This document shows positions 1,976 through 46,702 of a stretch of 64,000 nucleotides of DNA, one piece after another (position 1 is the stretch's first letter; each line of letters starts with the position of its first letter). The stretch comes from Apostichopus japonicus (taxonomy: Eukaryota > Echinodermata > Holothuroidea > Aspidochirotida > Stichopodidae): positions 26,252,841 through 26,316,840 of the forward strand of contig NC_092575.1 of the NCBI RefSeq assembly GCF_037975245.1, given 5' to 3'. The notes beneath the pieces were generated by a model that was not told the DNA's origin, made no database searches, and worked only from the letters and a program-made list of their open reading frames with translations. Made by a program: the position numbers and the translations under genes.

Positions 1976-2646
1976 CACTGTGGCGTAGCCAACATTCAAT
2001 TGTTAGGGGGCAAGATTTTTCTTAAGAGGGGTTGATGGTAGGAATTACCAAGAAATTTAACGGGCACCTCGTCTGCACAAATACACATCTAATGGTTCAG
2101 TGGAACATGACACACTTTCACTTAATTTACCTTTATTGCGGAGACAGTCGTCGTGGTTTCTGCATAATTCCGCACAATATGAAAATGATACAGTGAATAA
2201 ATTTGCTACTCTAATTCACAAGATGCCCAGATTCCCACAGAAACAAGTTTCACTAGGCCTATAGGACCTATACGTGCAGTGAATATTCTCCAGAAGTGGC
2301 ATCATTGGTCGCTGAAAATAAACATGGGTTGCTAGCGTTAGTTTGTAACGGTTATACAACTGGCCAAATTATTGGCGCTTTTTCTGTAGGACGATATTGT
2401 GGGTATGATGAAGGCCCAAAATGTATAATATTTCGGTCTGATTACCAAGTTCTGACCTTACATGAAGTATGAACATGAGCCCTGAGGTATGAATACTTGT
2501 GATCAGAACACGAAGAAATGTTAAAAAAAAAGTATAATTTTGAATACATCACTGGATCTCATTTGGGGGGGGGGGGGCAAGACTGTAGCACAAAGCAAAT
2601 TTGAAGAAGAAAAAAAACCTGGCTCCCTCTGGCTACGCCCTAGCTG
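1976..2646. mobile_element. Probable MITE with GGCGTAGCCA ends
   Basis: CACTGTGGCGTAGCCA at the left and TGGCTACGCCCTAGCTG at the right form an imperfect inverted pair of the type often seen at ends of hAT-like MITEs. A poly(G) run (near 2565-2577) lies close to the right end. The target duplication is not clear and there is no coding frame. Confidence 0.5.
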
Positions 2647-4148: not shown

Positions 4149-5081
4149 TGATTCCTTGCCGGGCCCATAGGAGAAATTTTGTTAGGGCTTTGATTTCAAC
4201 TAGAGATTTGGATATACCATGTTTGTAGGTTATTCACAGTTTGGGCTGTATTGACCTTCACCAAAACAATAGGGTTATTTAATTGATATGGATCATCGAC
4301 ATACCAAGTACATATCAAAATCTTATTGCTTACTACAAAGATACTGGCCAGAGAGAACCTACAGGAACTCAGCAACTTACGCGAAATGCAGCTCGTACAT
4401 CGGTTTCGTTGCGACAGTTTTGTACGGATGCCTGATCCGGACGACGAAATGATATAGGCTTGTGCATCATGATCGTAATGCAGAAACATGTATGTGATGA
4501 TAGTATGGTCGATGTTGGGTACCGTAGATTGGGTTTTCTGAAAACTACTTCTCTTGACCTCAAAGGAAATTTGACACGCATGAAATTCCACAGCGATTTT
4601 GTTCTCACCAAAGGCAATCTACGTGCTTTGTTTGTACATTAACGCAATTTCACTTTTAGAGTAATTTCTCACAAGATTTTCAGACTTTCACCTCAGATCT
4701 GCTGACCTCACATGGCTGTTGACCCGCGTCCAATATAATAGGGATCTCCTACACAATATGGGCCATCTACATACTAAGTATGAAATCCTTCCAAGTTACC
4801 CCTTCCTACAAGATATTGTGTTTACAAGCAGTTTAAGAGGTTTTTTAGTTTGACCTCTGGTGACCTCAAATGACCTTTGACCTCCACCAAAAACAATAGT
4901 AGTCTTTTTCCTAATATGGGTTACCCATATGAAGAGTATGAGTTACATACAAGCTTCAATTGTTGAGATACGTGTTTACAAGAAAGTGTCTCATACACAC
5001 ACACACCCACGCACGCACGCACACGCACTAACCCACACAATCACCATCGCATTGATTTCTTCAGCCTTTGGCAAGGAATCA
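4149..5081. mobile_element. TIR-bounded repeat carrying AGGTCA half-site units
   Basis: TGATTCCTTGCC at 4149-4160 is matched by the inverted GGCAAGGAATCA at 5070-5081. Inside are degenerate units of about 130 bp that include TGACCTTTGACCTCCACC (4871-4888) and the phrase ACCAAAAACAATAG. A CA/ACGC-rich microsatellite lies at 4995-5035 next to the right end. No target duplication and no coding capacity were seen. The short open frames here do not resemble a protein. Confidence 0.6.
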
Positions 5082-5339
5082 AAAGAGGCCTCTTTCTGGA
5101 TATAATGCCCCAGAGAACTACAGCAACTGAAATACAATGACTCAGACTTTTCTATTTTATTCCTTTTATTTCAAACCAAAAATATAGTATAAATGTAAAA
5201 ATACACGAGGTACACAAAATATGAATATATAGGGTAAGAGAAAAGATGTGATAAGGAGCTTGAAATAAACTTGATTGAAATGTACTGTAAAAGTCATTAC
5301 AATCCCAGTTACCTATACCACTCCACCCCCTCCGAAGAC

Positions 5340-11970: not shown

Positions 11971-12012
11971 AACATGGCGGACAGTAACTTCCGGTGGCTT
12001 CACAGAGTAGGC
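11971..12012 (+). promoter_or_regulatory. YY1/ETS-type initiator with a possible first coding exon
   Basis: AACATGGCGGAC followed by ACTTCCGG resembles the YY1 and ETS pair found at TATA-less housekeeping start sites. The ATG at 11,974 opens MADSNFRWLHR and meets a possible splice donor AGA|GTAGGC at 12,006/12,007. There is no further coding support. Confidence 0.3.
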
Positions 12013-12281
12013 CTGTTGCTCCAATCCAGTTAGTGTACAGATCAGTGGGATAGTCCGACGCCATTACAAAACCGGGCAAATTTTGCGCAAGATGTCAATG
12101 TCGTCTGCTCACTGTTTACCTTCTCTATTTCATTTTTTCTTTCCCTCTAATGTTTTGAATAAACAAATAAACGAGCGCCACTGATTGGCGACGCATATCA
12201 AAAAATGGTTCTCACTAATTTGCACTTTTCAGATTGAGGAAATGGGACAAAGGGGGGCGGGGGGGAGGGCACTTTTAACAC

Positions 12282-13139
<858 letters not shown>

Positions 13140-13259
13140 GCAAGGTAATTAACCATTCCCACAAAATATATATCTTCTTTGCAGACGATGACCAAACCTT
13201 CATAGCTGTCAGTTGAACATTCGTCACCATAGCAACGAAGAGAGCGACTTCAACGTTAA

Positions 13260-13607
13260 AGGCATTGAAGACTGGCCCCAAACAGCGTGCCGCCGTCTTT
13301 AAAAAGTTAACTTTCCCTTGCTTGCAAATTAAGTTTTTCTCTTGTCGCTACAAAATGCAGACAGTAATGAAACGTGATACCTTGTTATCTTTAGCTGGAC
13401 CTGAAATGTCCATCGCTGTATCGTTTGTACACTGTGCTGTGGGTATTGCGGGAGCTGTATGTACTGACTGTACACTAGTGACTAAGCTAGCTGTGTGTGT
13501 ATTTTCTGCGATCGATGGTGGTGTCTAACACTTCTGTTACACCTCATTCAAAACTAGGTCAGATTACTGGCATTAGACGTTTCTTTTTGCGCGAGTCTTC
13601 ACACGCT
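13260..13607. mobile_element. 348-bp MITE flanked by TTAA
   Basis: Terminal inverted repeats AGGCATTGAAGACT and AGTCTTCACACGCT (imperfect) bound the element. It is flanked exactly by TTAA at 13,256-13,259 and 13,608-13,611. TTAA target duplications are characteristic of piggyBac and Kolobok transposons. It has no coding capacity. A second copy lies 3.5 kb downstream. Confidence 0.8.
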
Positions 13608-13966
13608 TTAAAAGATCGGAACACGACGTCATCGGCGTAGGTATGTACGCCTACTACTCTAAGTTTCCCCTACGCATAAGAGAAGACGTCTCCCTGTAAG
13701 AGAAGCTTTCTTTGGTGGTCAAAATGCAAGCAAAATGTAACAAACATGCAATTATTTTTAACTTGTTATCTTATCAGAGGGTAACGCACTTCTTTTTCGA
13801 TTGGACGACCTACACAGTGGTACTTAACACAAATCCTGATAAGCATACAAAATTGTTAAGGCCGCGCGGATCCAGCAACTGCCATTTTGCAGCAAACATG
13901 ATGTGGATAATAGAGGGCGTATTATCACAACACCAAAATTAATCAATCAGTATACTCTACGAATAG

Positions 13967-15762
13967 CAGGCGCGTATCCAGGATTTTCTAACCCGGGGGG
14001 CGCGAATTACTATCTAAGCGGAGCGCCACCATCGGTTGGCGCGGAGCGTACAAGAAAATTTCTGGTTTTGATACCCCCCAGATCACCGGAAATGGCACTT
14101 CTCGGGCTTGAAAATGAGCAACCAGATGTACACTTTTACCTGAGAACCAAGTATTTCCCAAAAGTTTTTTTCCATCCACAACCTTTTTGAAGATTTTCAC
14201 CAGTCACACATCATGTTCGACCTGATTGCATGTCCTATGGATCATTGCTTTTGTAGGTTATTCTACGTCACGGCCCACAATATCCGAAAGCCCCACTTTT
14301 CAAGGTTTTAAGCCCATTACTTGTTGAGAATTTGAAAATTCACTTTTCTCGTGAATAAAATCACTTCAAAACATACCCATAATGTTGCACAAAATTCAAT
14401 CTATAGACAACCAATATAGAAAAACTCCTTGAACCCCTAACAGACAGGTCAAAATTGAACGAGTAGAGGAAAGTATGATGAAGAATGTTGGTGAGGAAAT
14501 TTTGGAAAATTCCGACACAGTTAATTTATTGGTGTAGAAATATTGCAACCTCTTATAATGGCTTTTACAAAACTTGGTTGAAGGAACAGAAAAATAGCAG
14601 ATATTTCCGATATCAGGTATATCGAAACCGAACACTTCACTCATAGGCGTAGGTCCCGTAGGAGGCGGGGGCTGCAGCCCCCCAATTGTTTTCCCATTTT
14701 TTCGGGCACCTACTGAAAATAAAATAAATAGCAATAAAAAGCTTAAAATTATCTCCTTGGTTATTTAAATAAAGTTGTAAGCTTGGCTGACATTACTACT
14801 GTAAAAGAGAGTTTTGACATAAATGGATCTGTATGCTTTTTCTCCATCTACATGAGACATTTGGTTGTTTACATTAGCATCCGGCGGTATACTGTGCAAC
14901 TTTCACGGACCGTGCGGTACACGATGCAATACAATGTAATGACCGATCTTGCCTATATGATATTGGCATCGATATGTTGAATGCGCGCTTCGCGCTTGAA
15001 AAATTTTGCTTTTTTTTCGGGCAAGTCAATACAGCCCCCAAATCCAATCTGGCTCCTACGCCTTTGACTACACACATAGACAGTTTTTGAGGCTGTTCAT
15101 CGTGAAACATGCATTTCAATGCTCACTGATATGATGTTATATCTGCTCTTTGCTTTACAAATTCGAACAGGCGTGTAGCGAGTAATTGCCAAGGGAGGGC
15201 GAAGCCTGTAGGCAAACTATGAGTTGGCGCGAAGCGTACAAGAAAAAGTTTGGCCGAAAATGCCTCCCAGATCGCAGGAAATGACACTTCCCAGGCCTTG
15301 TAAGTTGCATCTAAGCATTGTCTATTTTGAAATTACTAGCGATGTCATAAAGAAAATTTGCTCGGGGGGGGGGGCGGTCGCCCCCTTCCCGAAATGCGTT
15401 ATGTTCCCCGACGACTCGGTCGAGTTCAAGTACATTAGTGAGAGAGGAAAAACGGAAACGTCAAAAATGGAGTTGTCGGGGTAAGGGGTAGGGTGAGGCG
15501 CACACGTACCCCCTCCGTAATCCTTGATCTGTCACTGGCTACCCTGTGTATATAATAGGGATCTTTCTCTTCCCGAGGTCTTGGCTATCTTCTACTCCCT
15601 CCTTTTCTCCTTTTCTCTCTTTTTTCTTTTTCTTTTCCCTTCCTTCCTCTCCTCCTTTTTTTTTTCCCCTCCTTTTCCCTTTTTTTTCTCTTTTTTTTTC
15701 TCTCCTCTTTTCCTTACCCGGGGGGCGCGCGCCCCCAACGCCCCCCCCTGGATACGCACCTG
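13967..15762 (+). mobile_element. Composite TIR transposon, copy 1 (1796 bp)
   Basis: Begins CAGGCGCGTATCCAGG and ends CCTGGATACGCACCTG, its inverted repeat, and is flanked by AATAG on both sides (13,962-13,966 and 15,763-15,767), a 5-bp target duplication. From left to right it holds a region near the left end, an internal hAT-like element with 12-bp ends at 14,642-15,066, a truncated element starting CAGGCGTGTAGCGAG at 15,168, a G-run, and a polypyrimidine tract at about 15,590-15,715 next to the right end. Relative to copies 2 and 3 it lacks about 110 bp near 15,430. The short open frames inside it are not genes; they recur only because the DNA is repeated. Confidence 0.88.
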
Positions 15763-15767
15763 AATAG

Positions 15768-16796
15768 TAGGCAAAGCCGTAATACTAGATATACAATGCT
15801 CATATCAAACGCGAACTGGATTGGGGAACCAAACTTACAGTATTAATAATTGCACCAGCTTCATGGAAGAGTAATAATACCAAGAAAAATATAATTTAAC
15901 TTTAACTTTTATTACAATAAGACCTGAAACGGACGCTTATCACTACACGAAAATATCGATTTCACTTCCCCAAAACATAGAAGCAATAATATTGAAGGCG
16001 CACGTCACTTGCATTACATATAATACACGCGTATTGATATTGGATGTATATCTAGTATATAATATTCGGGCGGAAAGATGCTATTTTCTTTAATTTGGAA
16101 AGTTAATAATCAGATGAGTGGCTATCATTTTGAGAGCAAAAATAGACTTGTACTTGTATATACCTGCCATTTTGTCAATGTATGGTGTCACACGGTGCCA
16201 CTTTGGTGTAACCATTATAACGTTCCATTGCTTTCTGTTGCTTATCATATTTGAATGGGAGAACGTATAGTACTGTAGTGATGATAATGAAAACTACAAA
16301 ATAGTCTATAAAATATAACTTCATTATTTTAGAATAACCATTGGTATAAAAAACCCATATCAGTCAAAGAAAAGAAACGTATGTGTAAGATTCATGTATA
16401 TTACATTTCATTAACCAGAGCATAGTTTTTATTTTGGCAACATATAGCACTCCGAATGTTTCCTTGAGTCACGTTGTATACGATTGGTGTTATCATGTTC
16501 ATGCACGTGTTCACATTTCTGGTGTAAGGGGTTATGTTAATGAGAAGACAGTGTTAATTTTCACATAGTTTCTCGAGCCCCCAAATTGACCCGGTCCCTG
16601 GGGCTGTGCTCTTCTCGCCAGGCTTGCCCTCACCAACCCCAACCCCCCCCCCCCCCTCCCCCGTTCTCATGTATGTCAGCAAATTGGAAGCTATACTGAT
16701 TAAACAACACACAATTTTGCATAAAGTGAGTTACCCGTGTGTACTTTAATTAACATCCGGGATTTTGTAGCTGGCACAAAACTTTTTCGGTGTTTG
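15768..16796. other. Spacer between inverted composite copies
   Basis: AT-rich sequence without a gene, with a C-run near 16,640. Together with the second TTAA MITE it forms the loop between composite copies 1 and 2. Confidence 0.6.
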
Positions 16797-17143
16797 TCAG
16801 CTCCAAACCGTGTGCCGCCGTCTTAAAAAAAAGTTAACTTTCCGTTGCTTGCAAGTGAGGTTTTTTTCGTGTCGCTACAAAATGCAGACAGTAATGAAAT
16901 GTGATACCTGGTTATCTTTTATCTAGACCTGAGATGTCCATCGCTGCTATATGTACACTGTGTTGCGGGTATTGACCGTATCTGTATGTATTGAGCACTA
17001 GTGTCTTATTACCGACGGTAGCAAGCTGTGTGTGTATTTTCTGCGATCGATGGTGGTGTCTAACACTTCTGTCACACCTCATTCGAAACTAGGTCAGATT
17101 ACCGGCATGAGACGTTTCTTTGTACCCGAGTCTTCAATGCCTT
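16797..17143. mobile_element. Second, decayed copy of the TTAA MITE
   Basis: This is colinear with 13,260-13,607 in the same orientation and shares the blocks GTGCCGCCGTCTT, ACAAAATGCAGACAGTAATG and TGCGATCGATGGTGGTGTCT. The right terminus AGTCTTCAATGCCT is better preserved than in the first copy and is followed after one T by TTAA. The left terminus is lost. Small internal indels separate the two copies. Confidence 0.75.
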
Positions 17144-17523
17144 TTAACATCGAGTCGTAACTATATAATACCCGCAGGGATATGCGACCTAGATCCTGGA
17201 GATATCCACAGAATTTTGGTAGCCAAGAATACCCCCAATAGCTCCATGTTAGACTAACTAACACGTCCTTGCTTTCACAGCGTGCATGCATGGACTGTAA
17301 CATTACTCCTTTCGTTCTTTCCCTGTTAGTTCGGTTATATTTCGCTATTGCAATTATACAAAAAAAAGTTCACTTTGGAATTCTTGACAAGTATCCTAAA
17401 TTGTTAATTAATTTTCTAATTATTTAGGAGACCTTGGAATTCTCTCCCGGAGACTCTCCATGAAGCGATGACCTTTACAATTAACAAAGCCTTGGAGACA
17501 ATAGTCAAAATATGTAACAAAAT

Positions 17524-19472
17524 CAGGTGCGTATCCAGGGGCGTATCCAGGGGGGCGTTGGGGGCGCGCGCCCCCCGGGTAAGAAAAAGAGGAGAGAAAA
17601 AAAGAGAAGAAAAAAGGGAAAAGGAGGGGGAAAAAAGAAAAGGAGGAGAGAAAGGAAGGGAAAAGAAGAAGAAAAAAGAGAGAAAAGGAGAAAGGGAGGG
17701 AGTAGAAGATAGCCAAGACTTCGGGAAGAGAAAGAGGAACAGTCATAGTTAAAGCACTGATCCCTATTATATACACAGGGTAGCCAGTGACAGATCAAGG
17801 ATTACGGAGGGGGTGTGCGCCTCACCCTACCCCTTACACCAACAACTCCATTTTTGACGTTTTTCCCCCTCTCTCACTAATGTATCTATATAAATACTAT
17901 ATATGGTCTATCATAACGCGTGTGTGTGTATGGACGCCTTAAACAATTGTACAATTGTGCTATATGGAACCAACTGTGGCTGGTCTTGAACTCGACGGGG
18001 TCGTCGGGAACATGACGCATTTCGGGAAGGGGGCGACCGCCCCCCCCCCCGAGCAAATTTTCTTTATGACATCGCTAGTAATTTCAAAATAGACAATGCT
18101 TAGGTGCAATTTACAAGGCCTGGGAAGTGTCATTTCCAGCGATCTGGGAGGCATTTTCGGCCAAAATTTTTCTTGTACGCTTCGCGCCAACTCATGGTGG
18201 CGCTTCGCTTAGATAGTTTGCATACAGGCTTCGCCCCTCCCTTGGCAATTACTCGCTACACGCCTGTTCGAATTTGTAAAGCAAAGAGCAGATATAACAT
18301 CATATCAGTGAGCATTGAAATGCCTGTTCCACGATGAACAGCCTCAAAAACTGTCTATGTGTGTAGTCGAGGGCGTAGCCCAATTGGATTTGGGGCTGTA
18401 ACGACTTGCCCGAAAAAAGCCAAAATTTTTCAAGCGCGCGTTCAACATATCGATGCCAATATCATATAAGCAAGCATCGGTCATTACATTGCATGGCATC
18501 GTCTACCGCACGGTCCGTGAAAGTAGCACAGTATACCGCCGGATGATGCTAATGTAAACAACCAAATGTCTTATGTAGATGGAGAAAAAGCATACAGATC
18601 CATTTATGTCAAACTCTCTTTTACAGTAGTAATGTCGGCCAATCTTAGAACTTTATTTTAATTACCAAGGAGATCATTTTTAAGCTTTGCATTGCTATTT
18701 ATTTTTCTTTCAGTAGGTGCAAAATGGCAAAAAAATTGGTTGCGGGGCGGGGGGTGGGGGCTGCAGCCCCGCCTCCTACGGGACCTACGCCTATGTGTGT
18801 AGTGTTCGCTTTCGATATACCTGATATCGGAAATATCTGCTATTTTTCATTCCCTTCAACCAACTTTTATAATAGCCATAATAAGAGGTTGCAATATTTC
18901 TTCACCAATAAATTAACTGTGTCGGAATTTTCCAAAATTTCCTCACCAACATTCTTCATCATACTTTCCTCTACTCGTGCAATTTGTACCTGTCTATTAG
19001 GGGTTGAAGGAGGTTTTCCCTATTGGTTGTCCATAGATTGAATTTTGTGCAACATTATGGGTATGTTTTCAAGTGATTTTTATTCACGAGAAATGGGAAT
19101 TTTCAAATTCTCAACAAATAATGGGCTTAAAACCTTGAAAAAAAGTGGGGCTTTCGGATATTGTGGGCCGTGACGTAGAATCGCCTACAAAAGCAATGAT
19201 CCATAGGACATGCAATCAGGTCGAACATGATGTGTGACTGGTGACAATCTTCAAAAAGGTTATGGATGGAAAAAAAATTGAGAAATACTTGGTTCTCAGG
19301 CAAAAGTGTACATTTGGTTGCTCATTTTCAAGCCCGAGAAGTGCCATTTCCGGTGATCTGGGGGGTATCAAAACCAGAAATTTTCTTGTACGCTCCGCGC
19401 CAACCGATGGTGGCGCTCCGCTTAGATAGTAATTCGCGCCCCCCGGGTTAGAAAATCCTGGATACGCGCCTG
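17524..19472 (-). mobile_element. Composite TIR transposon, copy 2 (1949 bp, inverted relative to copy 1)
   Basis: Same family as 13,967-15,762, in the opposite orientation. It begins CAGGTGCGTATCCAGG and ends CCTGGATACGCGCCTG, and is flanked by AAAAT on both sides (17,519-17,523 and 19,473-19,477). The left terminus carries a short tandem duplication of GCGTATCCAGGG. The internal hAT-like element is bounded by TGTGTAGT duplications near 18,359-18,366 and 18,795-18,802. No transposase frame is present. Confidence 0.88.
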
Positions 19473-19477
19473 AAAAT

Positions 19478-20106
19478 AACGTACATAAGTCACAATTCAA
19501 AATCAAATTCATTTTGTAGAAATCTCTCTCTGCATCGATGTATCAACAAAGGATTGCAAATGGCGTAAAATGCACGGTAGAGGGTGTGGGGTATACACCA
19601 CCCCTTGTGAACCCCACTCCAAACATTAAATGTAGTTTGTAGCACAAAAACAATTGCGTGTAGACCTAATTATAAACCTAATTAAATTATAGACTAAATA
19701 TGTCTCAGAGTGCACAATTTCGTGTCTTAAATTTGTTTTCTGTGTGAGCACCCACACATCCCCTCCCCCCTTCCATCCCTACATGAGATATGCAATCAAC
19801 GATCCCAGAGCCACACCGCCGGTTTAAATCATGGATCCGTCCTTGTGCTAGTGATGAAACTAAAATCCTGCAAAGTGTCATCAATCTTAAAACAGCTTTT
19901 AGCGTTTGATGAGAAAGGTTATCTTTATATATTGAGTTCAACCTAGTAAACTAATTTAACATGATTTCATGACGCCACTGACTTGCTGATATGCATGGTC
20001 GTGATTTCGAATATCATTAAATTATTACATCATTACGTCTTTATATCATCTTTCCGGATACAGCTCACACTCTAGATGATAACCCACTAGGCTCGGATCC
20101 AGGATA

Positions 20107-20138
<32 letters not shown>

Positions 20139-23100
20139 GCACGCCCCACCCTAATTCGACCTTACTCAAAAAATAAAAAAGTACAGCTCATTGCTGATCT
20201 TGCGTTTATCAGTACTACTTACAAACCTACTTTATAGTCTAAAATTGCCTCAGAATGCACTATATTTAACGTCTATTTTCCCTTTTTTGGGGGGGGGGGG
20301 AGGGGGAGAACGCATAGACCCATAGGTCAACACCCTCCAATATAAAATCCTGCATCCGCCCGGCGTGTCTTTCCCCACCCCTTAGCATTCATCATGCCTG
20401 CTCCAATTCAAGGAGCATTCGGAGTCTAATTGGGAATAACCACACACAAAAAAAACACAAATATATTCTTCAATCAAATTATAGATTTTGTTTGGTAAAA
20501 TAAGTCGAAACATCAAAATGATATACGGCACAGACCCTCTGTTCACACCTATCCATCCCCCTCCTTACACCCCAAGTGTTTCGGAATGAAGACTCGAAAC
20601 TCAATCGTCCTTCTGGGCTTAGTAAGGTGACGCTACCTCAACCCTTACTATTGTATATTAAGATGGAGAAGGTCTTCGAACTTTTTAATCTTCTCTCTGT
20701 TTTCTTGTTTACGAACGTCTCGCTTTTTTCACACATGTAAACATGTCGAATGGAGTTTTAAGTCAAAACGCAAATATTGATTTTTTTCCCGGTGGTTTTC
20801 GATTGTCTTATAGATGTTTGGTTTGTTAGGCAACCGCTAAAATCGAATTTGTTTCCATGATGATAACGCTCTGGGATTGCTAGTTTATCATTACTTTACT
20901 TGAGCGCATGGTAATTTCCTGTACAGTTCTCTTTGAGTAAGAAGGTGATGTTGTCTATAGTACTATCAGAGAGGTATCTTTCTACGTACATGTCTATATA
21001 CCTAACACACAAGGAAAGAACAGCAGTTATGAGTATGTTATGTTAGGGCAAGGGTTATGTTATGAGTAAATTAACAAGGACAAGAAAGTCGTCTCCATCG
21101 AGACGTATATTAACCCAACCAGAGAAGTGGAGGCAGGGTTGGACTGGGGAAAGTGCCCTATCATACTCTCTTAAATTTGAAGACTGAAAAATTCAGTCTT
21201 AGGTTTGACTGAAATTTATTTCAGTCCGTAAGACCGATTTCCAGACGTTAAGACTGGAACTGGTTCCGAACGAAATTCAGCCTGCAATAGACTAAATGCA
21301 ATACCCAATCAAATCATTGTATTTTGTCACGTGCTCATTTTAATTTCAGTCCATGCGAAGACTGACCAGTTTAACCAATCCGGTCTGTCCAAATTAATGA
21401 CGTGTTCCTAATCTACATATGCCCGGCCGCGTACGTACGTACCCATGCTCAAACCCACATTTATTCGCGTATGGTCAACCTACGCAGTATACGCACTTTT
21501 ATTTATGTATACGATATAAAATCATATATGAGAAATATCTCACTGAAAAAGCTTCATCCCTAAGATAATGTTCATTTTACCCGCTCCCACCCATTCCTCC
21601 TCTCCCCGCCCCTTCCATCCTTCACTCATAATGCATAGAAATATGAAGAAAAGAGCTCTACACATTATATCACGGGACTGAAACACTTTCATGCATGAAT
21701 TGTTCTCTTCCATCGGCACAATGATCACGTGATAACGGCGATGCCTAATCTATTGTTGTATAGCAACTCATAAATGTGTCACCTTTCTTCAAGTACGTCG
21801 CGTATATGAATACGTGGTCATATAATTCATATACAGTTTCGTTCTATAACTGTAGATTGAATTTTGGCTCAGGTAACTTCACTTCAGTATAAGCGACATC
21901 AGAGAAATTCTAGTCCTTTAAGTTTATTTCCAATGATTTTCTAGTAACAAAACATAAAAGTTCGACTTTTGGCACCGTATGGCGTCACATTTCAAACACC
22001 AAAATGTTCACTACCAAGTTGAAGTTAGCAGGTACATTCGACACGCTTACATTATTTTTCGACAATTATCTTGGACATGCTCATTTTGGTAGAGGTATAA
22101 TTCTTCATAGACGGGCTGTAGGCGGAACGTTTTTAAAAAAAAAGGAGGGATATGGCTGTGGGATCATTGAATGCGGTTCTCACTTAGGGAGGCCTGCCGC
22201 CCCCCCCCCCCCGAATATAGTATAAACGTCAATAGTGCATTATGTGGCATATTTTAAACTATGAATTAGGTATTTTATTAGCGCTTCACAAAAGGTTGTG
22301 GTAATAAATACTTTTGAAGTCTGGGCGGGAAAACCCCGACTGAACGTTTTCAACCGGACTTACGGACGCCATACAATGTGTCATATAAATTAGCCATGCG
22401 TATCCATATCGCGTGTGGACAAATAGGTATAGCTGTTCCTGGGACAGTATACTGTATATATCTATAACATCACGTAGACTGTATATTTTGTACGACTGCC
22501 ACAGAAAAAAAAACTCGATCAGGAAATTGTTCGTTCTGAGACGAAGTAGATGTAAGCTTAAAATTTTGTGGGAGGTATAAAAGGGGTGTAAATACCCCCC
22601 CCCCCTCCCGCTTACCCTTCTCATTCAACACACACCCCAATATCCGCACCCAATTCCCCTTTACATTTGAAATATGACCAAACATGCGGTAATGAAATTT
22701 GAATTGGATAATGAGTTTGGGTGTGAAAATACTAAGAGTTGGAATTGGCCCCTCAATCCCCCCCCCCCACCCCCTTCTGAAATCTGTTTTGTTCTCACCT
22801 TGGATACGTTCACAATTACCCTTTGAGAGTACCTTGAGCTTTGTTTTCTCCCCAGAATCGTGAAATTCACCATTTAATCTGAAATCAGAGGAACGGATGA
22901 TAATATCACTCCCTGTACGGAGTAGCGTTTCATTCTATTTACCAAACTGATATAGAGCTGTTATATTGCTCTTTCTTATTTTAATTAATGTTGCAAACTA
23001 ATGATGAGGTTATAAATTTAACTCTTTGAAAAGGAACAATTCAAACATAGCGGTTACTGCCTCCCTCAACATTATACCCCACCCCAACACCCCCCATATT

Positions 23101-24647
23101 ACCCTTACCAAAATCCTGATAAAGAGACGACTTTGAGAGACGAAATCTTAGTGCTAGTCATTTTCATATAGTTATTCAGGACTTCAAGACATTCATATTT
23201 AAAGTATGTTAATATCTCTGGAATGCTCCTTTAAGGCTAAATTAATGATGACGTCATCCTTTATTAAAATTAGGCCTAAATCCGCTTGCTTTTCATATGT
23301 TTTCTGACTCATCTTATATGGTTGCTACTCATCATTAATAAAATTGCAAGTTTCCTTGTCAGAAAATCAAAAGATTATCCACAGAAGATGAAGATGAAGG
23401 CCACTAATTATTTATAACTATTATTATATTACTAATCATATAACTATTATGTATTATTCTTGCGACATTTCTCCCATCTGAAACATACCTTCTTTATAAC
23501 CACAAGTATATAACTAAGTTGATTTATAGGTTAGTATGTAATATATATATCTATAAACTACGGAGTACAGGCGGCATTGTATACGTCGACAGAAGCTGCA
23601 TAACGTCGATGACGTAACAGTTAATAGATAACCTAATGGAGATCATCCTTTCATTTGTTTTACGATAATCAGTTAATGGGAAACTCTAGATTAAACACTC
23701 TGCTTGGTGCTGTTTTCGCGGTCAACGGTATCGTTCAAAGAGAATCTTGTACTTAGCATGATTCTGACGACGTTGTATAGGTTTGGAACAGATCAATTAA
23801 CCATCTGTATAATACTAATACTGTAAACAAAACGTATGTTATTTCATACTTACAATCAAGTTTATTATACCCATTAATAACTTACGACCTAAGTTCATGT
23901 TATGAAAAGAAAAGAAATGGAACCATTGGCGCCTGTTTTTCACTGGTATTAGATTTTCACTTCAATATACTGGGGATGGCGGTATTGGCCACGAATAGTA
24001 TATATGCTAATATCAAAGTTCAACGCACTTTATTGGTTTTACTCACTCATTAACCAGGCGAGAACTTGTAAAGCGCCAAATACCCACCTTATACATACGG
24101 AAAGGACGTTTAATAATTAAACAATGCAAATATGCTCTATATGTAGTAAAATTCTTAGCCTATGACGGAGTCAGATAAAGAGAATTCTTACTAAATTGTG
24201 TTGTGTGACCGAATATATAGACGGCACAGAGAGAAGAGTAATATATTTAAGTATAGTCAGATTACGTTTGTTTACTACATTGTGGTATACGGCCTAACAG
24301 TAATAGGCACGCGATAGTTGAGAAATGAATCATAATGACGTCATCATGTGGCGCAAAGATATAAAGAATAATAAAAAATGTAAAAAAATAAGATCGGTCA
24401 CAAAATTAAGTTTGATATTTGTAGACCGTTATGAACAGTTATAAGATAAATGCAGGTGGTGTAACTATGTCCTTTTTTGTTTCGAAAAATATCGTTAAAG
24501 GGAATATAGAAATTGATCTAAAAAATGCTAGATATGTGCTAACATGGACACTTTTAGAAAATGTAACAAGGAGTCACCTTATTTAGTTCCAACCCAATTT
24601 TCATATCGAGCAGACACAAATCAAAATGATAGTATAATACCTTACCT
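19478..24647. other. Non-coding stretch
   Basis: Contains several poly(G)/poly(C) runs (20,115, 20,289, 22,200, 22,600, 22,760), a small palindrome around AAGACTGAA/TTCAGTCTT near 21,180 with further TTCAGTC words to 21,365, and two perfect TGACGTCA sites. The short open frames resemble no protein. Confidence 0.5.
20090..20365. repeat. Possible small inverted-end element with G-runs
   Basis: CTCGGATCCAGGAT at the left and ATCCTGCATCCGCC at the right form a weak inverted pair around two long G-runs and a GT microsatellite. It resembles the other short elements of the window but has no recognisable duplication. Confidence 0.3.
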
Positions 24648-26850
24648 CGTGGACCAGTATAGTATATCCCACTGAGCCAACAGACTAATATACCCACCTC
24701 ACTCCATATCATACATGAAACAAATATAAACCCCACTTATATTAGACTATGGTGGGCCAGTAAAGAGTATACCACTGGGTCAACAGACTAATATACCCAC
24801 CTCACTCCATATCATACATGAAACAGATATAAACCCCACTTATATTAGACTATGGTGGGCCAGTATAGAGTATACCACTGGGTCAACAGACTAATATACC
24901 CACCTCACTCCATATCATACATGAAACAGATATAAACCCCACTTATATTAGACTATGGTGGGCCAGTATAGAGTATACCACTGGGTCAACAGACTAATAT
25001 ACCCACCTCACTCCATATCATACAGGAAACAGATATAAAACCCACTTATATTAGACTATGGTGGGGCCAGTATAGAGTATCCCACTGGGACAACAGACTA
25101 ATATACCCACCTCACCCCATATCATACATGAAACAGATATAAAACCCACTTATATTAGACTATGGTGGGGCCAGTATAGAGTATCCCACTGGGACAACAG
25201 ACTCATATACCCACCTCACTCCATATCATACAGGAAACAGATATAAAACCCACTTATATTAGACTATGGTGGGGCCAATATAGAGTATCCCACTGGGACA
25301 ACAGACTAATATACCCACCTCACTCCATATCATACATGAAACAGATATAAAACCCACTTATATTAGACTATGGTGGGGCCAGTATAGAGTATCCCACTGG
25401 GCCAACAGACTAATATACCCACCTCACTCCATATCATACATGAAACAGATATAAGCCCCACTTATATTAGACTATGGTGGGGCCAGTATAGAGTATACCA
25501 CTGGGCCAACAGACTAATATACCCACCTCACTCCATATCATACAGGAAACAGATATAAACTCCACTTATATTAGACTATGGTGGGGCCAGTATAGAGTAT
25601 ACCACTGGGCCAACAGACTAATATACCCACCTCACTCCATATCATACATGAAACAGATATAAGCCCCACTTATATTAGACTATGGTGGGGCCAGTATAGA
25701 GTATACCACTGGGCCAACAGACTAATATACCCACCTCACTCCATATCATACAGGAAACAGATATAAACTCCACTTATATTAGACCATGGTGGGGCCAGTA
25801 TAGAGTATACCACTGGGCCAACAGACTAATATACCCACCTCACTCCATATCATACATGAAACAGATATAAGCCCCACTTATATTAGACTATGGTGGGGCC
25901 AGTATAGAGTATACCACTGGGCCAACAGACTAATATACCCACCTCACTCCATATCATACAGGAAACAGATATAAACTCCACTTATATTAGACCATGGTGG
26001 GGCCAGTATAGAGTATACCACTGGGCCAACAGACTAATATACCCACCTCACTCCATATCATACATGAAACAGATATAAACCCCACTTATATTAGACCATG
26101 GTGGGGCCAGTATAGAGTATACCACTGGGCCAACAGACTAATATACCCACCTCACCCCATATCATACATGAAACAGATATAAACCCCACTTGTATTAGAC
26201 TATGGTGGGGCCAGTATAGAGTATACCACTGGGCCAACAGACTAATATACCCACCTCACTCCATATCATACAGGGAACAGATATAAACCCCACTTATATT
26301 AGACCATGGTGGGGCCAGTATAGAGTATCACACTGGCAACAGACTCATATGTACCCACCTCACTCCATATCATACATGAAACAGAGATAAACCCCACTTA
26401 TATTAGACCATGGTGGGGCCAGTATAGAGTATCCCACTGGCAACAGACTCATATGTACCCACCTCACTCCATATCATACATGAAACAGAGATAAACCCCA
26501 CTTATATTAGACCATGGTGGGGCCAGTATAGAGTATCCCACTGGCAACAGACTCATATGTACCCACCTCACTCCATATCATACATGAAACAGAGATAAAC
26601 CCCACTTATATTAGACTATGGTGGGGCCAGTATAGAGTATCCCACTGGCAACAGACTTATATGTACCCACCTCACTCCATATCATACATGAAACAGAGAT
26701 AAACCCCACTTATATTAGACCATGGTGGGGCCAGTATAGAGTATACCACTGGCAACAGACTCATATGTACCCACCTCACTCCATATCATACATGAAACAG
26801 AGATAAACCCCACTTATATTAGACCATGGTGGGGCCAGTATAGAATTTAT
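24648..26850. repeat. Satellite array, about 21 copies of a 103-bp unit
   Basis: Each unit reads GGCCAGTATAGAGTAT, CACTGGGCCAACAGACT, CCCACCTCACTCCATATCAT and CACTTATATTAGACTATGG in order. Subfamilies are visible: GGGTCAAC units at the start, GGGACAAC units next, alternating CATGAAAC/ATAAGCCCC and CAGGAAAC/ATAAACTCC units in the middle (25,430-26,000), and CTGGCAAC with ATATGTACCC units at the end. The edges fade into unique sequence. Confidence 0.95.
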
Positions 26851-27364
26851 CGACTGCAACAGACCCCATTCACCCTACTGCTCCCACAAAAACCCTTCTG
26901 CTAGACTTCTTCCGTGTTTAACTGAACCAGACGGTGTATACATTTACCTATATACATGTAGCAAATGAAAATATGTTTCCAAAAAATATGTTGACAGTTC
27001 AAGTGCATGAGGTATATGTATAACATGCAATACCCTACAGTGTCATATATCTTTTAGCTTCAACATTCCTACCATCCACTAAGCATTAAATTGTCTAAGT
27101 GTAATAGACCTTATCACTTCACTCTTCACGTTTAAACTTTAGCCTGGATTCAAAAACCTCTAGAAGATATCTTGTCCGTTAGCGTTATATTTTACAAATC
27201 TATTTTGGTGAATGTATATATCTTCCTATATAACAAGTGGTTGAGGTTTTACCAAAATTTAACTTACACAAAACAGTTTCATATTTTAACGAACACTTTT
27301 ATAAATATATAGTGATCGGATGAATATGTATGATAAGTTGTTTTTCTTTAATGTATATGCCGGT

Positions 27365-27720
27365 GGATAGATTCTTACTCAAGTCGGTACTCGAGTACAT
27401 TTTCCTGTACTCTGACTATTGACTTTGTTCTCGTACTCGCAGAAAGCAAATTGTACGTACTCGTACCTGGGGAATTTAACTCATATACTTTGTACTAGTA
27501 CTAATTCTCAGACTTTGTACTCACACTCGGGGCCTTGTTCTCGTACTATGGGCTTTTTACTCGTATATTATAATACTCGGGGCTTCGTGTCGGATACTCG
27601 GGGCATTGTACTCGTACATGTACTCGGGGCTTTGTCCTCGTACTCGGGACTTTTCACTCGTATATTATAATACCCGGGGCATTTGTGTCGTACTCGGGAC
27701 ATTGTACTCACACTACAAGT
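27365..27720. repeat. Degenerate repeats of GTACTCG and ACTCGGGG
   Basis: More than ten imperfect units such as TTGTACTCGTACTCGGGG follow one another, with two larger near-duplicates containing TCGTATATTATAATAC (27,560 and 27,658). Open frames on both strands are products of the repeat. Confidence 0.75.
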
Positions 27721-28302
27721 CTGTATATATAGTTGGACAAAGTTTACCGTTTGAAACAATTCGTTTTAGATTTGTCTGTACTTGTAGTACGGTCTGTAAA
27801 AAAAAACCACACTCTTTCTTCGAATTTCGAAGTTGCATCTCTCGCTGCAATAGCAGATTGAATGACGTCATACGATAATTGAACTGAAAATCAAAATTGA
27901 AAAATTCATAAAGGAGAATAGTATTCTTATCAAAAAAGAAAAAGAAAAAAGACAGAGCGCTAATTCATTAACAGAAAAGCTGAACAAATGTTAGTGTCAT
28001 TTCAAGGTAACCCAACAAGACGATTGTAGATAGAACATTATGAAGTAGCTAGGCTATGTGTGTTGTAATGACATCACCGACCGCCTACTATTTTCGACTG
28101 TGATGTATTTCCTGTGGTTTGAAGTGTTTATCTGCCGAAAAAAAAAGATCTCTCAAATTATATAGACTTAGGGAGAAGATATTGAGTGTGGAAAACAGTT
28201 CACATGTGTTCAGTAAAGTTTAAATATGAAAATATTACCGTGGGCCATAACTAAAAGAAAATCTTTGTTGCAAATATTGGGGGGGGGGCGGGTGGTGGGG
28301 TG

Positions 28303-28386
28303 CAGCTTGTTTCCATGGTTCCTATATCACTCTGCGCCTCGGGTATTTCCACGGGCATCGTGCGGGACGGGAGAGGACCGCTTTAG
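28303..28386 (+). pseudogene. Possible degraded actin fragment
   Basis: In the frame starting at 28,303 the peptide SLCASGISTGIVRD (28,327-28,368) lines up with the conserved actin stretch SLYASGRTTGIV followed by a variable residue and D. It reaches a stop at 28,384 soon after. Nothing actin-like precedes or follows, so if real it is a tiny relic. The longer open frame at 28,226-28,474 is in another frame and resembles nothing I know. A chance match cannot be excluded. Confidence 0.3.
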
Positions 28387-28843
28387 CCAGCAGAAGGCGT
28401 TTAACCTACAGCAGAAGATACAATCGCAGGAAAATCGGTATAATAGAAAACGATTTCGAATGGGTTTGTTATAAGAGCATCTGTTTTACCTCCATGATAA
28501 GAGTAACCAAGGCATATTCCTGGTTAGTCGATATACGTGATCCAAACAATAGTTGATAATAGATCATAGATCGAATGATTACATAATGTCGTATTGTTGC
28601 TATATAACAAGTCAATAATGGGGGTATTGTGGACCAAGCGCTTCGCCATTCATTAATATAAAGATAGGTTATATACTTTGTATACGAACAGTGTTATACC
28701 AGCCGGCATACTGTGTTGTATTCTCAATTGTTCATTCCAGAGGGATCTTACGCTCACACATTCACATTGATATGATTGTATACATTAAAGTGTATGCATA
28801 TAAAAAGTATACTGTGTCATGCTAATATTACGTCCATGCAATT

Positions 28844-30817
28844 CAGGTGCGTATCCAGGGGGGGGGGCGTTGGGGGCGCGCGCCCCCCGGGTAAGGAAAA
28901 GAGGAGAGAAAAAAAGAGAAGAAAAAAGGGAAAAGGAGGGGAAAAAAGAAAAGGAGGAGAGGAAGGAAGGGAAAAGAAAAAGAAAAAAAAAGAGAAAAAG
29001 GAGAATAGGGGGGGGGGGGGGAGTAGAAGATAGCCAAGACCTCGGGAAGAGAAAGAGGAACAGTCATAGTTAAAGCGCTGATCCCTACTATATACACAGG
29101 GTAGCCAGTGACAGATCAAGGATTACGGAGGGGGTGTGCGCCTTACCCTACCCCTTACACCGACAACTCCATTTTTGACGTTTCCATTTTTCCTCTCTCA
29201 CTAATGTATCTATATAAATACTATATATGGTCTATCATAACGCGTGTGTGTGTATGGACGCCTTAAACAATTGTACAATTGTGCTATATGGAGCCAACTG
29301 TGGCTGGTCTTGAACTCGACCGAGTCGTCGGGGAACATGACGCATTTCGGGAAGGGGCGACTGCCCCCCCCCCCCCCCCGAGCAAATTTTCTTTATGACA
29401 TCGCTAGTAATTTCAAAATAGACAATGCTTAGATGCAACTTACAAGGCCTGGGAAGTGTCATTTCCAGCGATCTGGAAGGCATTTTCGGCCAAAAATTTT
29501 ATTGTACGCTTCGCGCCAACTCATGGTGGCGCTTCGCTTAGATAGTTTGCCTACTGGCTTCGCCCCTCCCTTGGCAATTACTCGCTACACGCCTTTTCGA
29601 ATTTGTAAAGCAAAGAGCATATATAACATCATATCAGTGAGCATTGAAATGCATGTTCCAGGATGAACAGCCCCAAAAACTGTCTATGTGTGTAGTCAAA
29701 GGCGTAGGAGCCCAATTGGATTTGGGGGCTGTAATGACTTGCCCGAAAAAAAAGCCAAAATTTTTCAAGCGCGAAGCGCGCGTTCAACATATCGATGCCA
29801 ATATCATATAAACAAGCATCGGTCATTACATCGCATGCCATCGTTTACCGTACGGTCCGTGAAAGTTCCACAGTATACCGCCGGATGATGCTAATGTAAA
29901 CAACCAAATGTCTTATGTAGATGGAGAAAAAACATACAGATCCATTTATGTCAAAACTCTCTTTTACAGTAGTAATATCGGCCAAGCTTACAACTTTATT
30001 TTAATTACCAAGGAGATCATTTTTAAGCTTTGCATTTCTATTTATTTTTCTTTCAGTAGGTGCCAGAAAAAAATGGAGAAAATTTGGTTGCGTGGGGGGG
30101 GGGGGGGGGCTGCAGCCCCGCCTCCTACGGGACCTACGCCTATGTGTGTAGTGTTCGCTTTCGATATACCTGATATCGGAAATATCTGCTATTTTACATT
30201 TCCTTCAACGCAGTTTTATAATAGCCATTATAAGAGGTTGCAATATTTCTACACCAAATTAACTCTGTCTGAATTTTCGACAATTTCCTCACCAACATTC
30301 TTCATCATACTTTCCTCTACTCGTGCAATTTTGACCTGTCTGTTAGGGGTTCAAGGAGGTTTATCTATATTGCTTGTCCATAGATTGAATTTTGTGCAAC
30401 ATTATGGGTATGTTCTGAAGTGATTTTATTCACGAGAAATGGGAATTTTCAAATTCTCAACAATAATGGGCTTAAAACCTTGAAAAAAAGTGGGGCTTTC
30501 GGATATTGTGGGCCGTGACGTAGAATCACCTACAAAAGCAATGATCCATAGGACATGCAATCAGGTCGAACATGATGTGTGACTGGTGACAATCTTCAAA
30601 AAGGTTATGGATAAAAAACTTTTGGGAAATACTGCGGTTCTCAGGCAAAAGTGTACATCTGGTTGCTCATTTTCAAGCCCGAGAAGTGCCATTTCCGGTG
30701 ATCTGGGGGGTATCAAAACCAGAAATTTTCTTGTACGCTCCGCGCCAACCGATGGTGGCGCTCCGCTTAGATAGTAATTCGCGCCCCCCGGGTTAGAAAA
30801 TCCTGGATACGCGCCTG
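28844..30817 (-). mobile_element. Composite TIR transposon, copy 3 (1974 bp)
   Basis: Begins CAGGTGCGTATCCAGG and ends CCTGGATACGCGCCTG, with the 5-bp duplication CAATT on both sides (28,839-28,843 and 30,818-30,822). It has the same internal order and orientation as copy 2. The purine tract at about 28,896-29,030 is the complement of the polypyrimidine tract of copy 1. It contains the best preserved internal hAT-like element (29,697-30,144). Confidence 0.9.
29697..30144. mobile_element. hAT-like element nested inside composite copy 3
   Basis: Starts CAAAGGCGTAGG and ends CCTACGCCTATG (one mismatch between the ends). It is flanked by perfect 8-bp duplications TGTGTAGT at 29,689-29,696 and 30,145-30,152. 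The same insertion, with the same duplication, is present in copy 2, and in decayed form in copy 1 (14,642-15,066). It therefore inserted before the outer element spread. Confidence 0.85.
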
Positions 30818-30822
30818 CAATT

Positions 30823-33800
30823 AGCCATTCATAATTCACATGAATTAGTAATAACCGCAGTGTTATAAGGAAAGCAAATCAGAGAAAATATAACATCAGT
30901 AGCCGATAACAATCATAAGCGCCAACGACATCTTATACGTCTTTCGCAATTGGTGTGAAAAGGCAATGGCGTAACTTTCCTCACAATTTTTTTTTGTTAC
31001 CCTCCAAATTATTCCTATCTATGGGCACTTATGAGTGCAAAGTTAACAATGCGACACATCAAAAAGAAGGAATGTAAACAGGTTTCATTCTTCTTGGGTA
31101 ATTCCAAAAATGTTATTTGTTATTCGTAAACTAAGAACAAGTACGTCATATATATATACTAGAGCTATTGATCCATATACACCCTTTGTGTATCAATGGC
31201 GTCTAACAATAGGCGTCATATTTGATATGGAAGGTCCTGTTGGTTAACGTTATCTTATACATCGACATGTATATAGGTTACATTAATATGTTGTTATAGG
31301 CCCTGTATTATACCAATCCGCTTAGAAACTACAATGCTAAACGGAAGCGTCCCTCCTTCATTTCCCCCCTTTTCCTAGTTTTTTTTTTGGTCCAATGTGT
31401 TTTTATCAAGGGATATTTTATCTGATGGAAGCAACTTCTGTCATTTACAGAAATTTCATAATCTGAATAATTTATTCAACCTCGACATTTTAACCTCCCA
31501 ATGAATTGAAATTTTTGCAACCTCTGATTCAATTCAAGTTAGGTACACTTAGCGTCATTTTCATAGATTTTCTTAACACGCAGGAAAGAGGAAAAAATGA
31601 AACCGATTAAACTGCCAACCATGTAATTAGTATAGGATTGTATACGGCAAGTGTTTACACGTGGGAATTTCTAATGAACGCCAGGCGGGAAGACAGGCCT
31701 TCTCTCGGCAAGCACATTCGCAAAACTGAGCTTCCAGGGAAATCATTACATCAACATGATTTCATTACACTTTTTTATCAGGTGTTGCAATGACTGAGAT
31801 AGCTAATGCGTCCCAACGGGACTTCGGTAATAAATTTCCCTCTCTCGTAATTTCCATATGGTATATATTTGGGATTTGGTATTTAAGTCCTACAGACTAT
31901 AAATTATAGCGAGATTTTATGTATAGCAAAAGCTATGGTATCAAACTATAGCCGTATTATCGTTATTCCACAGTGAGGTATATCGCAGGAATACAACTGG
32001 CCCATGGCCGTACGCAGCACTTTGTAAGAAGTGGTGCGTTTATGAAGACGCCATGCTTTCTATTGAACACCGACCTGGGGGGGTCACTATATTCTTGTAT
32101 AATTAATGGTTTTCGTACGCAGAAAGAGGTGCTCTTGTTTACTACGGTACCATATCAATTTGTTTTGTGACATTTGACTCAGTTACTGTTTATGCCCCCC
32201 CCCCCCCCCCAGCAGCACAAAAGACCATTCTCTATCCAAGAAAATGTATAACCTCCCAAATTGGCGGGGATGGAGGGAAGGGGGTTGGGAGCGGATACGC
32301 ACCCGTCACACCCTCTTGCATATACGGGCCTGTATAGCCACAGTTTCAAAAGTCATCAAGTGAGAGGAACCAAATAGGCAAGACTTTTGAGGCATTTGGC
32401 ACAAAATGGAATCTAATTCATATCATGAACTACTACTACACATAATTATACGCTTGGCTAAATAACCTGCAGAAAACAGAGTAGAAATAATAATGACTTG
32501 AATCGCATTCTTTTTCGTGATCGCGTACGCGTAATGTATAGATGATCTGCGCGCATTGTATACACATATCAATATAGAACGTCACCTTGTATTCATCAGC
32601 GTAAAGGTTTCGACGGGGAGTGGGAGAAGCAGGGGCAAGTTATTCGAACTGGGCAATTGTTTCTTCGGTGGTATATGTACCCTGCAAAAGGTAAATTTAG
32701 ATAATGACTAAGTGTCAGTAATGGCTGTACTTAGGTTTTCCTTGTACCGCGCATCTGTCATTTAACAGGTCCCTAGTTATACGAACATCTTTCTGCCCCC
32801 CATCATATCTTCTCGCAATCAGGCTATTCATTCTACACCATGCACCTAATAATCAGTTTTTCCATTGCTCAAACTATAACATCAGTTTTGGTGTGGGGGA
32901 GGGGGAGTCGCATTTCTGTCCCCATTTTCAGGCATATAGCGGTACATTGCCTTCCTGGAGTGGGCTTAAGGGTAGGGGTCGTCCCCCTCCCCTTTTGAAA
33001 ATTTTGTTTTTCGAAAAAGACTAAGATGAAATATGGTGTTATCAATTCCATTTTTATAAACTACATTCGTGTACTACAAGTTTCCTTTTTTGGTAAAAAA
33101 AACTTCACCAAGTTTTTGGGGAAAGAACGAAAAAATAATGTGTGCACCTGCGCGGTCGAAAAGCATCAGGTTATTATCACATGTTAAAAAAAAGTATATG
33201 TGAAAACAAACATATATATGGCCACTCAGAGAGACACTGCCTCCGAAAGCGTGTCGCAAATACATTTGAGGAGACCGTTCATTAAATTCTCTTTGGTAGT
33301 CTTCACCCCCCCCCCCACACACACACCATTGGCCCCATCCCCGAGGTTTGAGTAAATCTAGATTTTATGTTTGCTCCCTTTGATTTTTCAACGTTGCCCA
33401 TCGAGTCCCCAGAAATTGTTGTGGGGGGAACTCTGCCCCACCCCGCTGGCTACGCCACTTCATTATACTTATCTATGCGGTATAGGTTAAGATTATGTAT
33501 ATATATATACCAACATTGTGTTTTGCCACAATTGTGAACACTGACTTTAATTTTAGCACAAACAGCAACAGTTTTCACTCAATGGACCACATACATACAT
33601 TCGTACTAAATGCAACATTTCTAACAACCTACATGATTTAACTATAGACCCAATGTGGGCATAAATGACCTTATGTGAATATACCCTGTAAAACGGTTTG
33701 GGTAACACCTTCACAATGGATATGCAAATTGACTGAAGTGTACCGATGTATGGTAAATAAGTATACAAAGCGGTAATAAAGTGTTATTGAGCTTTCCCCC

Positions 33801-34127: not shown

Positions 34128-34379
34128 CAGGCGCGTAGCGAGGAATTTGCCAAGGAAGGGGCAAGCTTGTTGGCGAATTATCTAAGTTTGGGCGAAAATG
34201 CCTCCCAAATCGCTGGAAATGGCACTTCACAGGCCTTGTAAATTGCATCTAAGCATTTTCTATTTTGAAATTACTATATAAAAATTACGATATCATAAAA
34301 AAATACAACAAATATGCTCAAGGGGGGGGGGGGGGGCGGTCGCCCCATTCGTCCCCCCCCCCCGGTGGCTACGCGCCTA
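34128..34379 (+). mobile_element. Short MITE related to a segment inside the composite element
   Basis: Starts CAGGCGCGTAGCGAGG and ends GGCTACGCGCCT. The interior is colinear with 15,168-15,380 of composite copy 1, including the AAATGCCTCCCA block, the CAGGCCTTGTAA block and the G-run followed by CGGTCGCCCC. No target duplication could be recognised. Confidence 0.7.
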
Positions 34380-46468: not shown

Positions 46469-46517
46469 TGTTAGGCTATCTATGTAGCTCTCGTGCACAG
46501 CTGATCTTGGATTTCTA

Positions 46518-46540
46518 CTACAAGGAAAAACAAACTGGTC
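46518..46540 (-). promoter_or_regulatory. Putative 3' splice site before the elongase coding exon
   Basis: On the minus strand a pyrimidine-rich run (TTTGTTTTTCCTTGTAG) ends in AG 50 bases upstream of the elongase ATG. It fits the usual arrangement of a non-coding first exon spliced to a coding exon whose 5' UTR here would be 46,469-46,517. It is inferred from sequence only. The donor and the first exon were not located. Confidence 0.5.
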
Positions 46541-46702
46541 ACAGCCAATGAAATTCTCCACGGCAAAAGAGCTCTCGTTCAAATGAGTATCTCCGATATG
46601 ACACAAGAACTCGTTGTAAACAACACTATTTTTAAAAGTAAATTGTCTTGTTTTCCAATCTCGCTTCAGGTTTGCTTTCCAAGGCTGCTTGTATTCACCT
46701 CA

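Follow-up and report, generated by a model that had tools for sequence, protein, structure and literature searches.

Can a transposon that has been struck by another transposon go on multiplying with its cargo as one unit, and what kind of element would do so? This question is raised by a stretch of contig NC_092575.1 of Apostichopus japonicus (64,000 nucleotides, positions 26,252,841 to 26,316,840; hereafter the window), in which three copies of a composite element, named A, each hold an inner hAT-like element, named C. Typical hAT elements make 8-bp target duplications. An earlier reading of the window's letters, here called the original prediction, had described outer ends common to three copies, matching 5-bp duplications around them, and an inner insertion that preceded the spread of the composite. 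Our analysis of the window and of copies sampled from the genome makes it highly probable that A is a hAT5-like element, which received 8-bp cargo insertions in series and multiplied jointly with them.

Element A in the window and across the genome

The three window copies are about 1.8-2.0 kb long and have 16-bp inverted ends in common. The end CAGGYGCGTATCCAGG was found exact at all six A termini, giving three facing pairs in the 64-kb window, and 11 window matches with at most three mismatches were counted against 0.33 expected. The flanks of all three copies match at 5 bp and at no other length among 2-12. The chance of a 5-bp flank match was 0.0015, as estimated in 200,000 trials with random places 1.5-2.2 kb apart. 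Copy 1 is inverted relative to copies 2 and 3. The proposed copies, ends and duplications (AATAG, AAAAT and CAATT, all exact) were thus borne out. The left end of copy 2 (17524-17551) is partly doubled (CAGGTGCGTATCCAGGGGCGTATCCAGG). Other GGCGTAGCC-type ends occur at window positions 1977-2642 and near 33456, possibly marking more hAT-like elements.

We searched the genome (671.6 Mb, 35 contigs) for the exact 16-mer and recovered 3,942 occurrences, 1,973 forward and 1,969 reverse, with 0 for the reversed-pattern control. From the first 100 of these ~3,942 end positions, all on contig C1, 34 facing pairs less than 8 kb apart were picked by eye; together with the window copies (c1, c2 and c3) they form a set of 37. 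The outermost 16 bp are exact in all sampled copies by design of the search. An exact 5-bp duplication was seen in 29 of the 34 sampled copies, so that the duplications claimed for the window hold in the genome sample and do not give way to 8-bp or random flanks. Over the 32 exact A sites, including the window's three, the symmetrised counts give A or T at duplication positions 2 and 4 in 58 of 64 cases; three bases beyond the duplication there is A on the preceding side or T on the following side in 32 of 64.

A tree was built from 30 of the 37 copies; L045, L048, L063, L069, L072, L075 and L073 were omitted for length or structure, and all its non-window copies come from C1. The three window copies fell into three different subfamilies, c2 with L042 and L074 (support 100), c3 with L051 (95) and c1 with L062 and L065 (100). 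Each window copy has closer kin on C1 than the other window copies, although a tree confined to C1 does not locate the closest kin genome-wide.

The right end of A is relatively conserved. Among the window copies the 158 bp at this end contain 0 variable columns, as against 130 of 1601 elsewhere, an invariance reached by 6 of 20,000 permutations and in 4.5% of simulations under a block-varying rate. In the larger set this stretch varies by 2-4%. Total invariance was therefore dismissed as a striking feature, being partly luck, and the relative conservation stands. Divergence between the two main A types amounts to 4.3% in the right 158 bp, 2.1% in the left 50 bp and 15.1% in everything beyond the right 158 bp. 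The last value is inflated where a further element, D, replaces part of C; the A-right interior taken alone diverges by 9.9%. Conservation of the ends would fit selection for mobility acting on them while the lineages were active.

A rare variant end, CAGGCGCGTATCCAGGT, occurs at five places on one strand, ~0.18-0.34 Mb apart, on contig C16 (44.2-45.1 Mb), which suggests a repeated large block. Relatives of A on viral contigs were considered and rejected: the 16-mer occurs in 33 stretches with one match each, taken as chance, and comparison with copies 1 and 2 and with the first part of copy 3 gave only 16-19-bp matches and two weak ones of 36-40 bp.

Nested insertions and their order

Element C lies at the identical alignment position in all three window copies of A. 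In copies 2 and 3 it is bordered on both sides by exact TGTGTAGT. The string common to both sides is actually 13 bp long (CTATGTGTGTAGT) because the 3' end of C, CTATG, matches the left flank; from the start of the inverted ends of C we infer a duplication of 8 bp, the length that had been proposed for these two copies. A fuzzy search recovered the right junction of C in 35 of the 37 copies (all except L045 and L075), with TGTGTAGT present there in 31. The left junction was found in only 21 (17 exact; the one in L068 is apparently a false match), because the D-bearing subfamily lost the left side. Both flanks are exact in 14. Copies c1, L062 and L065 have AGTGAAGT and the loss of the ~100-bp stretch X100 in common and form one clade with support 100, and the altered duplication was therefore inherited. 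C-like pieces were also noticed in L089, L095 and L097.

The site predicted for an A copy that never received C, with a single TGTGTAGT, has 30 exact matches in the genome and 0 for the control. Ten of these 30 sites were sampled. The left flank of A was present in all ten and the right flank followed directly in eight, while L110 and L114 run into other sequence; at L109 part of a second, C-bearing A copy lies beside the C-free one. Both ends could be located in three of the ten, and an exact 5-bp duplication surrounds two of these, L108 (CTAAT) and L112 (ATTAC). One junction in 35 of 37 copies, together with the existence of C-free sites, leads to the conclusion that C inserted once and that the composite then multiplied. 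This is the order of events that the original prediction had put forward, and the inner element was not found at scattered positions.

The nesting goes deeper than was foreseen. While the inner C was confirmed, a remnant named B had been missed in the window, and the elements D and E can be seen only in copies elsewhere in the genome. D sits within C in 13 of the 34 sampled copies, mostly with a length of 373-385 bp (338 in L064), and its ends read CAGTGGCGGAGC. The 8-bp duplication around it, CCGCCGCG, is exact in 11 of the 13 and differs by a single mismatch in the remaining two. Twelve D-bearing copies entered the tree, where they make up a single clade (support 100). E is a 583-bp insert in the C-free L112, flanked by the 8-bp duplication CACCAATA; among the ten C-free copies L109, L111 and L112 gave its left junction and L110, L112 and L113 its right one. 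In 33 of the 37 sampled A copies the E site looks unoccupied (L064 has extra bases there). L075 shows the right junction of E, and c3, L043 and L045 gave no match.

An 8-bp duplication next to inverted ends, as in ordinary hAT miniature inverted-repeat transposable elements (MITEs), is present in C, D and E and is not seen in B. A B probe covered at least 182 of its 259 bases in 33 of the 34 sampled A copies, and 101 in L075. The C-free L108, L110 and L112 have ~640-750 bp of other sequence between the flanks where the composite has B. A clean insertion of B is thereby ruled out, and since other sequence stands between the same flanks, the arrival of B was probably accompanied by a deletion of A sequence.

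A, B, D and E also have a subterminal module of ~107 bp in common. In A, 42 bp separate the module from the right end in 32 of 37 copies and 41 or 43 bp in four, and in one copy an insert has displaced it. It recurs in B, D and E at ~77-84% identity (copies with a long match), at 63-65 bp from the end in D (13 of 13), 54 bp in E (L112) and 79 bp in the stand-alone B at 55.5 kb, and in the copies measured its orientation toward the end is the same in all four elements. Its carriers differ in duplication length, 5 bp for A versus 8 bp for D and E. Shared ancestry of recognition ends or an exchange of modules may explain this. A bolder reading would be an exchangeable recognition cassette, with related hAT transposases of different strand-transfer spacing binding the same DNA, or with end modules swapped between families. 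We regard it as unlikely. If true, recognition and duplication length would be separable, and the tendency of these elements to insert into and be carried by each other might be accounted for.

The proposed hAT5 assignment and its rivals

In 20 stop-free pieces of A, 17 belonging to copy 3 (55 residues or longer) and three to copies 1 and 2, no Pfam family scored above the cut-off. The hAT dimerisation domain PF05699 gave 150 scored matches out of 633 candidates in the genome, and 30 of the 150 loci were examined with 1.5-kb flanks. The A-like left end CAGGCGCGGATCCAGAGGGG is present at L098 and at L104, loci related to each other with 98.7% identity over 551 bp, and L104 has the right end CAGGGCCGGATCCAGGATTC (CAGGGCCGGATCCAGGATT). 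Their ends repeat the left/right asymmetry of A itself, with GGGG after one end and ATT after the other. By this likeness of termini they are the best lead, as candidate relatives of the family supplying the transposase of A. At L089 a hAT domain lies between CAGTGGCGTAGCCA and TAGTGGCGTAACTA with the 8-bp duplication GAAGTAAG, and 18 of 21 bases at the right end of A are identical to an end of this element (by eye). As the comparison with L089 and L104 indicates, A has short inverted ends starting with CA like elements that encode a hAT transposase. Four near-identical hAT loci, L099-L102, have 804-residue frames and the end CAGTGGCGGATCCAGG (one end reached) and are possibly recently active. 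L085 was rejected as a partner because it matched in a T-run only.

The longest sampled copies, L048, L069 and L075, were considered as autonomous versions of A and set aside, since their length is owed to other inserts. Nine pieces of the L048 and L075 inserts were scanned and contained no hAT transposase. The L048 insert (1897-5181 of the oriented element) has ends CAGAGCCTTATATAGAGAG, a 9-bp duplication GATAGTAAT and a THAP-domain piece (E = 3.9e-06). The L069 insert has long open frames and looks by eye like a non-LTR (long terminal repeat) retrotransposon, and L075 carries an insert of ~4.7 kb with ACACTGAAAA ends.

The canonical 8-bp hAT duplication is replaced by 5 bp in A, and the hAT5 group is the published exception. 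The group was reportedly set up by Kapitonov and Jurka in 2007 (Repbase Reports 7:1188-1191). Families of hAT elements with 5-bp duplications have been named hAT5 since 2007 (PMC12730594, PMC9004415), and the latter paper reports them from some invertebrates and fish. The hAT-5 of PMC6004678 is an amoeba element with 8-bp duplications and distinct from this group. Among the open-licence PMC papers listed in literature searches none was recognised as a description of family A, and the 20 of 59 terminal-motif matches listed were unrelated by title. The 5-bp duplication and the hAT-like ends starting with CAGG suggest that A is hAT5-like, membership being a matter that its transposase would have to prove.

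Taken together, A would be a non-autonomous cut-and-paste hAT transposon that depends on a transposase supplied in trans, one that makes 5-bp duplications and binds the 16-bp inverted repeats and the conserved right subterminal region. While active, A was struck by other hAT elements making 8-bp duplications. C inserted once, in the main A lineage, and D later into C in one sublineage; E entered the C-free lineage, which is presumed to be older, and B would have arrived with a deletion removing ~700 bp of A. Because these cargoes left the ends of A intact, its transposase could have kept moving the whole package, and the cargo multiplied as subfamilies.

Several observations weigh against this account. 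Five of the 34 sampled A copies do not have an exact 5-bp duplication: L043 has one of 6 bp, L069 one of 4 bp and L045 one with a mismatch, and L051 and L057 have none. The C-free L110 also has no such duplication (ATAGT / GAGGT), and no duplication of B was seen at its two stand-alone copies or at the nested remnants in copies 2 and 3. A search for a transposase element with the same ends, suggested along with the original prediction, turned up the A-like ends of L098 and L104, but no PF05699 locus lies between exact A ends among the 30 of 150 examined (L100 merely has an adjacent A copy), and neither the 34 sampled pairs nor these 30 loci included an intact autonomous element whose ends are exactly those of A. 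The domain of L104 does lie between ends with at most three mismatches from those of A, but there is no flanking duplication and the frames are short (255 and 102 residues). At L098, whose frames are likewise short, the 6-bp string TAAAAG occurs in the left flank and again past the right end, which is apparently cut, and the sole hAT-domain element with a convincing duplication, L089, makes 8 bp and not 5.

Could the window copies simply be tandem or segmental duplicates of one region, in which case the shared C would say nothing about transposition? All three are contained in 17 kb, and copies 1 and 2 each have upstream of them one member of a direct duplication (344 bp, 83%; 13275-13601 / 16800-17136). 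However, the 5-bp duplications differ from copy to copy, copy 1 stands in the opposite orientation, and no other flank similarity was found (12001-13966, 15763-17523, 19473-24000, 27001-28843, 30818-33000). In the tree each window copy is nearer to a C1 copy than to the other two; belonging to three subfamilies, they are therefore not local duplicates. The distinct duplications and the tree already refute local duplication, which we consider extremely improbable. Repeated independent insertion of C at a hotspot in A would equally produce an identical site, and hAT elements have target preferences, yet we give this almost no credence: the derived changes within the duplication (AGTGAAGT) are common to c1, L062 and L065, the D insertions occupy one site in C and form one clade in the tree, and no copy with the junction found had C reversed or shifted by some bases. 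The C-free copies might also have arisen by precise excision of C instead of being ancestral, since a perfect excision would leave the same exact site with a single TGTGTAGT. We judge this improbable, because L108, L110 and L112 have the other sequence in place of B and E junctions occur in five of the ten; C-free copies thus differ elsewhere too, which points to a separate lineage. In addition, hAT excision usually leaves footprints.

As to the nature of A, the original prediction had offered either an unusual hAT branch or another superfamily. The hAT branch fits hAT5, although no intact transposase could be tied to A. The finding of no intact transposase would also suit another superfamily, such as Transib or an undescribed one, and 5-bp duplications are made by other superfamilies including Transib. 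Against this stand the hAT-domain loci L098 and L104 with their A-like ends of the same asymmetry, the 18 of 21 bases that the right end of A shares with L089, and the module that A has in common with the 8-bp-duplication elements D and E. We therefore attach little weight to another superfamily and prefer a hAT5-like A with serial cargo insertions.

Further features and comparison with known systems

Coordinates of element A, its cargo and related elements are collected below.

Table 1. Positions of element A, its nested elements and related sequences (window coordinates unless a locus is named)
Feature	Position	Strand	Remarks
A, copy 1	13967-15762	minus	c1 subfamily, without X100
5-bp duplication AATAG, copy 1	13962-13966; 15763-15767		exact
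A, copy 2	17524-19472	plus	facing exact 16-bp ends
5-bp duplication AAAAT, copy 2	17519-17523; 19473-19477		exact
A, copy 3	28844-30817	plus	facing exact 16-bp ends
5-bp duplication CAATT, copy 3	28839-28843; 30818-30822		exact
hAT-like C in copy 1	14642-15066	minus	425 bp; minus-strand flanks TGTGTAGT (15067-15074) and AGTGAAGT (14634-14641)
hAT-like C in copy 2	18368-18795	plus	428 bp; TGTGTAGT at 18360-18367 and 18796-18803
hAT-like C in copy 3	29697-30144	plus	448 bp; ends CAAAGGCGTAGG / CATAGGCGTAGG
C duplication TGTGTAGT, copy 3	29689-29696; 30145-30152		exact
Module (~107 bp), right end of copy 1	14009-14115	minus	
Module (~107 bp), right end of copy 2	19324-19430	plus	
Module (~107 bp), right end of copy 3	30669-30775	plus	
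B remnant in copy 1	15168-15389	plus	3' boundary approximate, by eye
B remnant in copy 2	18026-18266	minus	approximate
B remnant in copy 3	29354-29595	minus	approximate
Stand-alone B-like element	55541-55844	plus	ends CAGGCGCGTAGCGAGG / CAGGCGCGTAGCGAAG; no clear duplication
Stand-alone B-like element	34128-34379	plus	decayed; no clear duplication
hAT-domain remnants with A-like ends	L104, 749-1791; L098, 1495-2044		short, truncated

The window holds several other features. A trinucleotide repeat of ~950 bp (12198-13148) reads as a single repeated residue in each of several frames (poly-D, poly-S, poly-H, poly-I, poly-M), and tandem arrays occupy 24546-26923 (units of 103-104 bp), 58070-58842 (62 bp, with one 49-bp step) and 62404-63977 (44 bp, extending almost to the window end). 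A 400-residue frame on the minus strand (45497-46699) matched the ELO family (GNS1/SUR4) of fatty-acid elongases with a Pfam E = 3e-65, the one match among six window frames scanned and one in keeping with an animal genome.

In the nested A family the layering of DNA transposons within a single genome is preserved with unusual completeness. Duplications of their own mark C, D and E, unoccupied sites exist for C and E, and derived marks label the subfamilies, so that a large part of the succession of events can be read off directly. The family shows that amplification of a hAT-like element making 5-bp duplications can continue while several 8-bp elements ride in it. The copies also form a defined set for asking what a transposase needs for recognition, conserved ends versus a drifting interior, and whether this can be separated from duplication length.

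Compared with known systems, A resembles the hAT5 group in its 5-bp duplications, and an animal host of invertebrate type fits. It differs in that its copies are without a transposase and hence without phylogenetic placement, and A is set beside hAT5 by duplication length, not by termini. C, D and E resemble ordinary hAT elements and MITEs in their 8-bp duplications and hAT-like termini, with L089 as an example in the same genome, whereas A makes 5-bp duplications and C, D and E were seen as its cargo. Nested or hitchhiking insertions likewise have an inner element carried by an outer one; here, however, a large family has grown out of the package, its insertions are stacked and can be put in order, and C-free relatives exist in the same genome. 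Bacterial composite transposons also move cargo as a unit between outer ends, but A is one element holding others and not two complete elements flanking a cargo. The nested A family is a clear case of a known process and not a new kind of element.

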